Assembly: GCF_900101745.1 (NCBI RefSeq)
Contig: NZ_FNAD01000001.1
Location: 744,001-808,000, forward strand
Origin: Glycomyces harbinensis
Lineage (GTDB): Bacteria; Actinomycetota; Actinomycetes; Mycobacteriales; Micromonosporaceae
Length of the DNA: 64,000 nucleotides
Direction of reading: 5' to 3'
In this document: piece after piece, positions 25,819-36,539 of the stretch
Position numbering within the stretch: position 1 is the first letter of the stretch
How the letters are laid out: every line of letters starts with the position of its first letter
Made by a program: the position numbers and the translations under genes
Notes under the pieces: generated by a model
The model's input: only the letters and a program-made list of their open reading frames with translations
What the model was told of the DNA's origin: nothing
Databases searched by the model: none

Positions 25819-25843
25819 TATTCCTATCTAATCAATAGGATAT
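25819..25843. promoter_or_regulatory. Sulfur-regulon palindrome, site 1 (upstream of egtA)
   Basis: TATTCCTAT-N7-ATAGGATAT, a 9-7-9 inverted repeat, lies 18 bp upstream of the egtA start and downstream of the rrf2 stop. The same layout recurs at 26384, 27194 and 35726. The Rrf2 protein next door is the natural candidate to bind it. Confidence 0.7.
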
Positions 25844-25878
25844 ATAGATATTACGGCCCGCGTGCTCGGCGCGCAAGC

Positions 25879-26334
25879 TCAACGCGGCATCCAGGCGTCC
25901 TCCTCGGCTGTCAATTCGGCGACACGGAGCGGGAACTCGCCGGTCGCGGCCTGGGCGAGGGAGACGCCGTCGAAGACCGAGCGCACGGCCGCGCGGGCCG
26001 CGACCCACAGCCGCGGCAGGTTCACAGCGGCGCCTTCGTAACTGGTCTCCTCGGGACGGCGCCCGCGGATCTCGGACAGGGGGCCGTCGACGGCGCGCAG
26101 CACCTCCCCCACCGATATGTCCTCGGGCGCGCGCGAGAGGCGGTAGCCGCCCTCGACCCCGCGCACGGAGTCGACGAGATGGGCCCTGCGGAGGTCGCCG
26201 AGGATCACCTCGGCGAACTTGCGCGGCAGCTCCTGCGCCGCGGCCAGGGTGCTCGCGGAGATGGTGCGCGGATGGCCGTGGGCCAGGGTGACGCTGATGC
26301 GGACGGCGTACTCGCCGCGTGCGGAGACCTGCAT
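25879..26334 (-). CDS. Rrf2-family transcriptional regulator without cysteines (CymR-like)
   Basis: This is a winged-helix regulator of 151 residues, the family's usual length. The Rrf2 layout is clear: GEYAVRISVTLA, LAAAQELPRKFAEVILGDLRRAHLVDSVRGVEGGYRLSR, ISVGEVLRAVDG. The protein has no cysteine at all, so it cannot hold an Fe-S cluster as IscR or NsrR do. In that respect it resembles CymR, the cysteine-metabolism repressor of Firmicutes. It is divergent from the first leader peptide and upstream of egtA, with a matching palindrome on each side. Start ATG 26334 follows AGGGAG. Regulation of sulfur genes is inferred from this context. Confidence 0.9.
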   Translation of the reverse strand: MQVSARGEYAVRISVTLAHGHPRTISASTLAAAQELPRKFAEVILGDLRRAHLVDSVRGVEGGYRLSRAPEDISVGEVLRAVDGPLSEIRGRRPEETSYEGAAVNLPRLWVAARAAVRSVFDGVSLAQAATGEFPLRVAELTAEEDAWMPR

Positions 26335-26383
26335 GGAGCCCGGCTCCCTTCATGAGTCTGGGGCTTGGCGGATACGTGCCCTT

Positions 26384-26408
26384 GAATCCTACTTGATAGA
26401 TAGGATAT
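26384..26408. promoter_or_regulatory. Sulfur-regulon palindrome, site 2 (rrf2 / leader peptide 1)
   Basis: GAATCCTAC-N7-ATAGGATAT has the same 9-7-9 spacing as sites 1, 3 and 5. It lies between rrf2 (minus) and the first leader peptide (plus). Its right half overlaps a -10-like TATGCT (26406-26411) exactly 7 nt before the leader GTG, so a bound repressor would cover the promoter. It could also give rrf2 autoregulation. Confidence 0.7.
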
Positions 26409-26417
26409 GCTTTCGGG

Positions 26418-33961: not shown

Positions 33962-34749
33962 CCCAGACCCGCCACGCCGCGCGGGTCGCCGACACCGCCC
34001 GGGCCCCCGGAGCCGTGGTGCTGACCGACGTGGTCAAGCGCTACGGCCGGGGCCCGGGCGCCGTCACGGCACTCGACGGCGTCTCGCTCAGCGTCGAACC
34101 CGGCAGTTTCACCTGCCTGCTCGGCGCCTCCGGCTGCGGCAAGAGCACCCTGCTCTCGCTCGTGGCCGGACTCGACGACATCTCGGGCGGCTCGATCGAC
34201 CACGTCGACCAGCCGGTCGCCATGATGTTCCAGGAGTCGGCGCTGTTCCCGTGGCTCACCGTCGCGGGCAACGTCGAGATCGCCATGCGGGTGAGGGGCG
34301 TCGGTCGGGCTGAACGACGCCAGAAGGCCGCGGAGCTGTTGGAGACGGTGCGGCTCACCGGGTTCGCGCACAAGCGGCCCCACGAGCTGTCGGGCGGCAT
34401 GCGCCAGCGCGTCGCGCTCGCCAGGGCGCTGGCGCAGGACGCCTCGGTGCTGCTCATGGACGAGCCCTTCGGCGCGCTCGACGCGATGACCCGCGACATC
34501 CTCCACGACGAGCTGGAGCGGATCTGGCGCGAGCGGTCCCTGACGGTGCTGTTCGTGACCCACAACGTGCGCGAGGCGGTGCGCCTGGGCGACCGGGTGG
34601 TGCTGCTGAGCTCGCGTCCGGGCCGCGTCCTGAACGTCTACGACGTCGAGATGGACCGGCCCCGCCGGATCGACTCGGCGCCGGTCGCGAACCTCGCGGC
34701 CTCGATCACCGACGCGCTGCGCGAGGAGGTGTCGCGCCATGCCGGTTGA
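33958..34749 (+). CDS. Sulfonate-type ABC transporter ATP-binding protein
   Basis: This is a 263-residue ATPase of the SsuB/TauB class. Walker A GASGCGKST, Q loop MMFQESALFPW, signature LSGGMRQRVALARALA, Walker B VLLMDEPFGALDAM and the switch histidine in FVTHNVREAVRLG are all present. It overlaps the binding-protein gene (ATGA), and its end overlaps the permease gene by 11 bp. Confidence 0.95.
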   Translation: MTQTRHAARVADTARAPGAVVLTDVVKRYGRGPGAVTALDGVSLSVEPGSFTCLLGASGCGKSTLLSLVAGLDDISGGSIDHVDQPVAMMFQESALFPWLTVAGNVEIAMRVRGVGRAERRQKAAELLETVRLTGFAHKRPHELSGGMRQRVALARALAQDASVLLMDEPFGALDAMTRDILHDELERIWRERSLTVLFVTHNVREAVRLGDRVVLLSSRPGRVLNVYDVEMDRPRRIDSAPVANLAASITDALREEVSRHAG

Positions 34750-35626
34750 GGCGGCCAAGAAGGAGAAGGACACCTCCCGCAAGTGGGTGTCGGGGCTCGA
34801 CGAGCTGGAGCGCACCCCGGTGACCGAGACGCGGCTGGGGCGCCTCGGCGCGCGGCTGTGGGCGGGCACCTGGCCGAAGATCCTGGCGCTGGTGCTGGTC
34901 ATCGGCGCCTGGCAGCTCCTGTTCCTGAGCGAGTGGAAGGCGCCGTGGGTCCTGCCCTCGCCGCTGACCGTGTGGCAGGACCTGGCCGCGTACGCCGCGA
35001 CGCCGGACTACCTGCAGGCCATCGGCATCACCTTGCAGCGGGCCCTGACGGGGTTCGCGCTGTCGGTGCTGGTCGGTTCGGTGCTGGGCATCGCGGTGGC
35101 GCGGTTCAAGCCGCTGCGGGCGGCGATCGGGTCGCTCATCACCGGGCTCCAGACGATGCCGTCGATCATGTGGTTCCCGCTCGCGATCCTGCTGTTCAAG
35201 ATCTCGGAGTCGGCGATCCTGTTCGTGGTGGTGCTGGGTGCAGTGCCCTCGATCGCCAACGGGATCATCTCGGGGATCGACTACGTGCCGCCGGCGTGGA
35301 AGCGGGTCGGCGCGGTCCTGGGCATGAAGGGCCTCCAGCTGTACCGGCACGTGATCCTGCCCGCGACGCTGCCCTCGTTCGTGTCGGGCCTGAAGCAGGG
35401 CTGGGCGTTCGCGTGGCGCTCGCTCATGGCCGGCGAGCTGCTGGTGATCGTGGCCGGGCAGGGCTCGGTGGGCGCGCTCATGCAGGGCGCCAGGGAGTTC
35501 AACGACTCGGCCCGCGTGCTGACCTGGATCATCACGGTGCTGGTCATCGGCATCCTGGTGGACTCGGTCTTCAGGGCCGCCGACAACCGCATCCGCAGTT
35601 CCTGGGGTTTGAACCAGGAGCGCTAG
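34739..35626 (+). CDS. Sulfonate-type ABC transporter permease
   Basis: This is a 295-residue permease of the SsuC class. An unusually long charged cytoplasmic tail of about 45 residues precedes helix 1. The coupling loop is AWKRVGAVLGMKGLQLYRHVILPATLPSFVSGLKQ, and WRSLMAGELLV is typical of the group. It is the last gene of the second transporter operon, followed by a hairpin. Confidence 0.94.
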   Translation: MPVEAAKKEKDTSRKWVSGLDELERTPVTETRLGRLGARLWAGTWPKILALVLVIGAWQLLFLSEWKAPWVLPSPLTVWQDLAAYAATPDYLQAIGITLQRALTGFALSVLVGSVLGIAVARFKPLRAAIGSLITGLQTMPSIMWFPLAILLFKISESAILFVVVLGAVPSIANGIISGIDYVPPAWKRVGAVLGMKGLQLYRHVILPATLPSFVSGLKQGWAFAWRSLMAGELLVIVAGQGSVGALMQGAREFNDSARVLTWIITVLVIGILVDSVFRAADNRIRSSWGLNQER

Positions 35627-35648
35627 ACCCGCAACCGCACCAGAGTTT

Positions 35649-35688
35649 CCCCGCGCCGGTTCGCAGTCGCACCTTCGCCGGCGCGGGG
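35649..35688 (+). terminator. Hairpin after second sulfonate transporter
   Basis: A perfect 11-bp stem (35649-35659 with 35678-35688) with an 18-nt loop lies 23 bp past the permease stop. No U tract is present. It separates this operon from the next, which starts with its own operator-like site. Confidence 0.6.
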
Positions 35689-35717
35689 ATCCCCACCCGA
35701 ATCCCATGGGGCATCAC

Positions 35718-36539
35718 ATGACCAGTATTCCTATTAAGAACATAGGACAGATAGACTTTCGAGCGGTCGCGGCGCGGCTGCGACTCGACCGGCTCCGCAT
35801 CCTCATCGGACCGGTGGCCCTGCTCGCGCTGTGGCAGATCGGCTCGGCGACCGGGCTCGTCCCGGAGCAGACCCTCGCGGCGCCGTCCACGGTGATCGCG
35901 GCCGGCGCCGACCTCATCGAGGCCGGGCGCCTCCAGGAGCACCTGCTGGTGTCCCTCGGCCGGGCCGCCACCGGCCTCGCCCTCGGCGTGACGCTCGGCG
36001 CGGTGCTGGCCGTCGTCGCCGGACTCTTCCGCCTCGGCGAGGACTTCATCGACGGCCCCATGCAGATCCTCCGCGCCATTCCCGCGCTCGCCCTGGTGCC
36101 CCTGGCGATCGTGTGGTTCGGCATCGGCGAGGAGGTGAAGGTCTTCCTGGTGGTCTTCGCGACCGCGTTCCCGGTGTACGTGAACACGCACGCCGCGATC
36201 CGGGGCCTGGACCCGCGGTTCGCGGAGCTGGCGCGCACGGTCGAGCTCGGCCGCTTCGCCTTGGTGCGCAAGGTGATCCTGCCCGGAGCCCTGCCGGGAT
36301 TCTTCACCGGCCTGCGCTTCGCCACCGCCATCTCCTGGCTGGTCCTGGTCGTCTCCGAGCAGATCAACGCCACCAGCGGCATCGGCTACCTCATGACCCA
36401 GGCCCGCAGCTTCGCGCAGACCGACGTCATCGTCGTCGGCCTGGTCGTCTACGGGCTCCTGGGCCTCGTCTCGGACCGGATCGTCCGCCTCGTCGAAGGG
36501 AGGGTCCTGCCGTGGCGACGGACCTTCGCAGCGCAGTAG
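35718..36539 (+). CDS. Sulfonate/sulfate-ester ABC transporter permease
   Basis: This is a SsuC-like permease of about 273 residues. The coupling loop is AELARTVELGRFALVRKVILPGALPGFFTGLRFA, and EQINATSGIGYLMTQA follows. The start is uncertain: in-frame ATGs lie at 35706 and 35718, neither with a clear ribosome site. The palindrome at 35726-35750 falls inside the first codons, while helix 1 begins only at about residue 25. Either the operator lies within the coding region or a non-ATG start downstream is used. The ATPase gene begins inside its 3' end. Confidence 0.88.
   Translation: MTSIPIKNIGQIDFRAVAARLRLDRLRILIGPVALLALWQIGSATGLVPEQTLAAPSTVIAAGADLIEAGRLQEHLLVSLGRAATGLALGVTLGAVLAVVAGLFRLGEDFIDGPMQILRAIPALALVPLAIVWFGIGEEVKVFLVVFATAFPVYVNTHAAIRGLDPRFAELARTVELGRFALVRKVILPGALPGFFTGLRFATAISWLVLVVSEQINATSGIGYLMTQARSFAQTDVIVVGLVVYGLLGLVSDRIVRLVEGRVLPWRRTFAAQ
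35726..35750. promoter_or_regulatory. Sulfur-regulon palindrome, site 5 (third transporter operon)
   Basis: TATTCCTAT-N7-ATAGGACAG shares the 9-7-9 layout, and its left half is identical to that of site 1. A -10-like TAGACT (35752-35757) follows directly, as at sites 2 and 3. It overlaps the annotated start of the permease gene. Confidence 0.65.

Follow-up and report, generated by a model that had tools for sequence, protein, structure and literature searches.

Palindromes that look like switches at the sulfur-scavenging genes of Glycomyces harbinensis and other Micromonosporaceae

The closest known system to the one described here is the CymR regulon of Firmicutes. According to the accessible text of one report, CymR controls the ssu genes in Bacillus subtilis and acts in a complex with CysK that senses O-acetylserine/cysteine (PMC3828012). 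From an actinobacterium, Rhodococcus qingshengii, the CymR/Rrf2 candidate IGTS8_peg394 was proposed as a global sulfur regulator on the basis of proteomics and homology, as far as the accessible part of that report goes (PMC8557817), and a comparison of Rrf2-operator structures describes, in its available sections, a central 7 bp without base-specific contacts (PMC9338935). We analysed a stretch of 64,000 nucleotides from Glycomyces harbinensis (contig NZ_FNAD01000001.1, positions 744,001 to 808,000; the whole stretch is called the window below), in which four matching palindromes, with 9-bp arms and a 7-bp centre, lie at or in the ergothioneine gene egtA, the Rrf2 regulator gene rrf2A and transport operons. 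The palindromes resemble genuine switches of genes for sulfur scavenging, and we consider it probable that they are the operators of a CymR-like sulfur-acquisition regulon, read by Rrf2 proteins and complemented by a layer of leader open reading frames (ORFs).

A sequence-only reading of the window had reported the four 9-7-9 palindromes, and all of them were found in place (sites 1 to 4, Table 1). The exact pattern TCCTA-N9-TAGGA matched these sites and no others in the window, and it never arose in first-order Markov simulations of the window (n = 1000). When up to two mismatches were allowed, the window gave 13 matches against 5.25 expected, a number that none of 100 shuffles reached. The four palindromes are real and not a product of chance. 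Across the 6.17 Mb genome the exact pattern occurred five times, four of them in the 10 kb locus, and a reversed control pattern three times; as a count this difference is weak, so the evidence lies in the clustering. The longer pattern WTCCYA-N9-TRGGAW matched three times genome-wide (sites 1 and 2 and a fifth site described below; control, 0), and TTCCNA-N9-TNGGAAT matched nowhere in the genome. Bit scores were calculated with a matrix built from 39 sites; their arms are invariant because the pattern selected them, and this invariance is hence not evidence. The N7 centre differs among the sites, which fits Rrf2 operators because their central 7 bp is not base-read in the structures described in the accessible text of PMC9338935. 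Rfam, searched at gathering thresholds, identified nothing in the window.

The sites are kept in relatives. Among 22 Glycomyces genomes, 13 have the locus, and sites 1 and 3 were exact in all 13. Site 2 was exact in 10 of the 13, with one core mismatch in each of G002, G007 and G009 (G, C and L numbers are our handles for genomes, contigs and loci). The 22 genomes together contain 56 exact sites, of which 38 are in the locus. The others are at sfn operons (six sites; the flanking genes were read for four, and the remaining two were assigned by site identity), DUF4395 genes (three), a TauE gene and a sulfotransferase gene (one each), or lie between the same gene pair in two genomes (two sites; one copy gave a subthreshold PAP2/VCPO match, the other none in Pfam). 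Five are isolated, at a DoxX gene, an aldo/keto reductase gene, the recA promoter and, for two, no target. In G. harbinensis the fifth exact site is on another contig (C21), between a LysR-type gene and a second organosulfur operon, whose products match SfnB (505.3 bits, cut-off 430.9) and SfnG (602.3 bits, cut-off 382.95) and, below cut-off, also the DszC and SsuD models.

The same motif was present at sulfur genes of other genera. Exact sites numbered 40 in 19 further genomes, or 26 after removal of a 14-copy dispersed repeat of the TCCTAA...TTAGGA type in G030, which is distinct from the sulfur operator and was left out. The flanks of 22 of these 26 were read. Eleven of the 22 precede a sulfur-type gene, namely cysteine dioxygenase (CDO; four sites, in G025, G028, G035 and G036, confirmed by Pfam in 4/4), flavin reductase (three, G024, G035 and G036), an operon for a substrate-binding protein (SBP) and ATP-binding cassette (ABC) transporter (two, G024 and G031), TauE (one, G028) and an SsuD-like enzyme (one, G048). 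NCBIfam named neither of the two CDO proteins given to it. Five of the 22 precede a recurring partner, which is a winged-helix gene (G028, G036), an NAD_binding_9 gene (G031, G036) or a DUF4395 gene (G028), and six precede neither kind, among them a site at a carbonic-anhydrase gene of G030 that was not counted as sulfur-related. The G025 site, between the CDO gene and an NAD_binding_9 gene, scored 43.5 bits, the best of the non-Glycomyces sites scanned. Thus the two checks proposed in the sequence-only reading, conservation in relatives and enrichment at sulfur genes genome-wide, came out in its favour, and its description of the regulon as local did not hold, given the site on C21 and the sites of other genera; judged from their placement, the sites are a candidate sulfur regulon across the Micromonosporaceae and not a local one. 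Literature searches, judged by title and abstract, gave no description of this operator; subscription papers were poorly covered, and the result argues only weakly for novelty.

In two genera, DUF4395 membrane-protein genes follow the sulfur operator (L092:4233, L050:1501, L076:4437 and L109:4734; Pfam 4/4), and this recurrence suggests a sulfur-related role for the family.

Table 1. Positions of the palindromes, genes and predicted expression signals in the window
Feature	Position	Strand	Remarks
Site 1, 9-7-9 palindrome, egtA promoter	25819..25843	.	exact core at 25822; 43.5 bits
Site 2, palindrome common to the leader-1 promoter (+) and rrf2A (-)	26384..26408	.	exact core at 26387
Site 3, palindrome 5' of leader ORF 2 and the sulfonate operon	27194..27218	.	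exact core at 27197
Site 4, palindrome within codons 3-11 of a permease gene	35726..35750	.	exact core at 35729
Degenerate site ahead of the SBP2-ABC operon	32812..32836	.	19.4 bits
egtA, ergothioneine glutamate-cysteine ligase	24551..25801	-	TIGR03444 371.1 bits, cut-off 370.8
rrf2A, cysteine-free Rrf2 regulator, 151 aa	25879..26334	-	PF02082 101.3 bits
OmpR-type winged-helix protein without a receiver, alternative reader or regulon member	26632..27192	+	PF00486 76.8 bits
Sulfonate operon: SsuE-like, flavin reductase, SsuA, SsuC, SsuB, NtaA/DmoA-family monooxygenase	27514..32650	+	flavin reductase and ATPase named by eye
Second ABC operon: NMT1-like SBP2, ATPase, permease	32804..35626	+	ATPase named by eye
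Third ABC permease and ATPase, sulfatase, SsuA-like SBP	35718..40603	+	ATPase named by eye
Predicted egtA -10, TAATAT	25848..25853	-	TANNNT here in 13/13
Predicted leader-1 promoter, -35 TTGAAT, 18-bp spacer, -10 TATGCT	26382..26411	+	TTGA in 13/13, TATGCT in 12/13
Leader ORF 1, 40 aa, ...RRHIDFARSDSALC..., predicted leaderless GTG start	26418..26540	+	conserved in 11/13
Predicted leader-2 -10, TAGTGT	27223..27228	+	TANNGT in 13/13
Leader ORF 2, 34 aa, MTSAAFLTRRREIDQMRAASALC...	27236..27340	+	13/13, exactly +20 from the end of site 3

The two Rrf2 proteins of G. harbinensis were assigned to the superfamily by profile scores above the cut-offs (Rrf2A, PF02082 101.3 vs 30 bits and TIGR00738 96.3 vs 73.3 bits; Rrf2B, TIGR00738 103.6 bits). 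Rrf2B, encoded elsewhere in the genome (G000:C11:77824), is 45% identical to Rrf2A and has a counterpart in 22/22 genomes of the genus. CymR was the best equivalog for Rrf2A; because Rrf2A (81.3 bits) and Rrf2B (62.3 bits) miss the 195-bit cut-off of the CymR model NF047409, neither was filed as CymR. Both proteins are without any cysteine, and no cysteine was among the invariant columns of 18 homologues. Rrf2A therefore lacks the cluster-binding cysteines of the iron-sulfur (Fe-S) proteins IscR and NsrR, and agrees with CymR in having no Fe-S cysteines. When profile A1 was compared with structures, Rrf2-family proteins were returned, with the BadM/Rrf2 regulator 4cic as the best (E = 1e-28), followed by 3lwf and then the CymR structures 3t8r and 2y75 (approximately 1e-24).

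The sequence-only reading had taken rrf2A, the four sites and their targets for a complete regulator-site-target set, with Rrf2A as the only reader of a local set of sites. The location of rrf2A between sites 1 and 2 agrees with this proposal, and site 2 was exact in 8/8 genomes with rrf2A vs 2/5 without it, which fits self-control. However, rrf2A is present in only eight of the 13 genomes with the locus. The five that lack it form three branches (G002 and G007; G009; G006 and G008) in a midpoint-rooted tree of eight concatenated locus proteins, and they retain sites 1 and 3 in exact form, so that Rrf2A cannot be the sole reader; G010 and G025, of other genera, also have sites and no rrf2A. 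We rejected Rrf2A alone as a full account and give very little credence to it. The simplest reading is that rrf2A would have been lost three times, that it would control itself through site 2, and that another reader would keep sites 1 and 3. Candidates for this other reader are the core paralogue Rrf2B and the adjoining receiver-less winged-helix protein.

The arrangement in other genera points to Rrf2 proteins. An rrf2 gene of a third kind ends the site-fronted SBP-ATPase-permease operon of both G031 and G024. In Micromonospora sp. NBRC 107566 and Phytomonospora, rrf2A is divergent from or beside an SBP-ATPase-permease operon with a near-exact site 5' of it, and in Actinorhabdospora rrf2A is close to such an operon. 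Because other genera have rrf2 genes in or beside site-bearing operons, we favour an Rrf2 protein as the reader, and Rrf2B, Rrf2A or both may act in Glycomyces.

Several observations weigh against this assignment. Besides the missed CymR cut-off and the absence of rrf2A from 5/13 genomes that keep the sites, 70 of 74 rrf2A loci outside Glycomyces had no match of at least 20 bits in the DNA examined. Such a match was found only at L117, L121, L132 and L176 (the last about 6 kb away); the majority of rrf2A orthologues thus show no link to this operator. The region upstream of rrf2B holds no site, and rrf2B also occurs in nine genomes of the genus without the locus, six of which have no exact site. 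In addition, site 4 is intragenic and its DNA is weakly conserved (see below). The remaining points concern the winged-helix protein, which could read the palindromes itself, with the Rrf2 genes as passengers or acting elsewhere. Within the genus, the distribution of close winged-helix orthologues (E <= 1e-77) coincides with that of the locus (13 genomes), which is not true of rrf2A, and relatives have a site just upstream in G028 and G036 or follow the CDO and rhodanese genes behind a site in G035 (C29:87521-87997, with the site at C29:89111). Long winged-helix matches also occur in the site-bearing genomes G024, G027, G030, G031 and G048. On the other hand, the site-bearing genomes G025 and G010 have no winged-helix match that starts before profile position 25, an argument that is not airtight because G025 has a match at positions 27-171 (E = 5.4e-22, in an open frame of 239 aa). 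OmpR-type proteins usually bind direct repeats, and in G024, G031 and G035, which have rrf2 near their SBP operons, no winged-helix gene was named among the genes called around those operons. We regard the winged-helix protein as an unlikely reader. The occurrence of rrf2B in genomes without an exact site would also suit a family-wide regulator of some other family, to which we attach hardly any probability, since rrf2 genes of two subgroups are repeatedly co-located with the sites and the geometry of the operator is Rrf2-like.

The positions of the sites relative to the predicted promoters would suit repression at egtA, leader 1 and leader 2. For the leader-1 promoter, the predicted -35 (26382-26387) and -10 (26406-26411) elements enclose a spacer that contains nearly the whole core of site 2, and the predicted leader-2 -10 (27223-27228) follows site 3. 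The placement of a -10-like box at the right half of the palindrome, which had been noted for three sites, was therefore borne out for sites 2 and 3. For egtA, the TANNNT box conserved in 13/13 genomes lies upstream of site 1, on the side away from the gene, so that the operator would sit at about the predicted transcription start.

At sites 2 and 3, the promoters seem to begin transcription at leader ORFs of the leaderless, cysteine type. Leader ORF 1 has its GTG 6 nt past the -10, which predicts a leaderless transcript, and the leader-2 -10 ends 7 nt short of the ATG of leader ORF 2. Both ORFs are short, conserved (leader 2 in 13/13 and leader 1 in 11/13 genomes), contain a cysteine and lie just 5' of a gene that could be attenuated. 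Leader ORF 1 was absent from G002 and G007, which also have no rrf2A and an altered site 2. Their similarities to leader-peptide models were all below the cut-offs (leader ORF 1, NF042936 E = 0.00068 and NF042934 E = 0.0026; leader ORF 2, NF042934 E = 0.005), the scores against the putative leader peptide model NF042934 being 17.3 and 16.5 bits, respectively, against a cut-off of 27 bits. The combination of leader ORFs with operators suggests two layers of control.

Taken together, we propose that cysteine-free Rrf2 dimers would occupy the TCCTA/TAGGA arms and so cover or flank the core promoters of egtA, the sulfonate operon, the winged-helix gene and the sfn operon. Transcription would be blocked when cysteine or sulfur is sufficient, and sulfur shortage would cause release. 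The constant reader is probably the core paralogue Rrf2B; Rrf2A, expressed from site 2, would probably be an extra, self-controlled copy acting on the same sites. The leaderless cysteine-type leader ORFs 3' of sites 2 and 3 would form a second, attenuation-like layer. More tentatively, and with somewhat more doubt than belief, this may extend to a Micromonosporaceae-wide regulon in which a core Rrf2 repressor and an expendable self-controlled duplicate share common operators, a repressor and a leader peptide act in series on one transcript (a stacked transcription/attenuation switch), and the duplicate was lost at least three times while its targets were kept.

Two further sites in the window were less clear. 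All of the palindromes had been placed in control regions, and this was not so for site 4, which is inside the permease ORF starting at 35718 and not intergenic. In the stretches examined, this permease gene was found in 5/13 genomes, with the start codon and the peptide IPIK-x-(I/V)-GQ conserved in 5/5. The DNA palindrome was exact in two of the five, had one core mismatch in G019 (27.8 bits) and was weak in G011 and G004 (15.3-18.4 bits). The codons at site 4 end in A or T in a genome with high third-position GC, a hint of a DNA signal; AT-rich gene starts are common, however, so the status of site 4 is uncertain despite these codons. The degenerate copy pointed out near 32812-32854 proved to be a conserved element. 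Within the stretches examined, SBP2 could be located in 11 of the 13 genomes, and each of the 11 has a weak match, scoring 13.8-23.0 bits, no more than 100 bp upstream of the gene. Among 510-bp segments drawn at random from these loci, with true sites not excluded, about 6.9% score 13.8 bits or higher. This element is probably a weak operator. In G009, in which SBP2 was not found, an extra near-match of 29.0 bits is directly 3' of the sulfonate operon (L072:12073).

Between the second and the third ABC permease genes, a hairpin of -29.7 kcal/mol was predicted at 35641-35700. Its counterpart in G017 has -29.5 kcal/mol, and GC-rich stems with similar loop letters were seen by eye in G011 and G004. 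The region flanking egtA (18096-24443) has KdpD/KdpE-like genes and a gene for a large secreted polysaccharide-lyase-like protein (named by eye).

Other matches were not taken as operators. These include a conserved palindrome, ATCCTATAGGATATATAG, directly 5' of recA (named by eye) in G009 (L073:3798), with near copies in G001, G015 and G016; metQ-like ribosome-binding sites in G012 and G020; one more match on contig C34 of the G. harbinensis genome (G000), with one mismatch to WTCCTA-N9-TAGGAW, directly 5' of a probable secreted-protein gene; and, in G052, G057 and G003, exact matches that score 8.8, 8.8 and -11.2 bits and have no sulfur target. Dyads resembling CCGAT-N7-ATCGG, 5' of rrf2A in other genera (16/74 loci), were also rejected, because their flanks are nearly identical and their distances fixed, which suggests a (putative) coding sequence upstream.

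For sulfur control in a large actinobacterial family, the analysis names a specific operator, lists targets and puts forward candidate readers, and it ties ergothioneine synthesis to organosulfur scavenging. The genomes without rrf2A are natural gene-loss strains in which one can ask how a regulon persists once the regulator gene beside it is gone.

The proposed regulon resembles that of CymR in Bacillus and Staphylococcus in its sulfonate- and cysteine-type targets, and in the Rrf2 protein, which for CymR is described as lacking Fe-S cluster binding in the accessible text of PMC9338935. It differs in that Rrf2A, at 81.3 bits, misses the 195-bit cut-off of the CymR equivalog, Rrf2 is present in more than one copy, the targets include egtA and sfn genes, leader ORFs lie downstream, and no cysK was noticed near rrf2A. 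Mycobacteria reportedly have cysteine-responsive, leaderless, polycysteine short ORFs ahead of operons, and the Glycomyces leaders are likewise short, leaderless cysteine ORFs ahead of operons; they have one shared cysteine (SALC) and are not polycysteine, however, and an operator overlies each predicted leader promoter. IGTS8_peg394 is similar as an actinobacterial Rrf2 protein proposed to regulate sulfur genes, but in the accessible text of PMC8557817 its immediate neighbourhood has no sulfur genes and no operator is described. Finally, NsrR, IscR and RsrR share with the proposed system dimer operators in which, in the crystal structures covered by the accessible part of PMC9338935, the central 7 bp is not base-read, but these proteins carry Fe-S clusters, whereas Rrf2A and Rrf2B of Glycomyces are cysteine-free.

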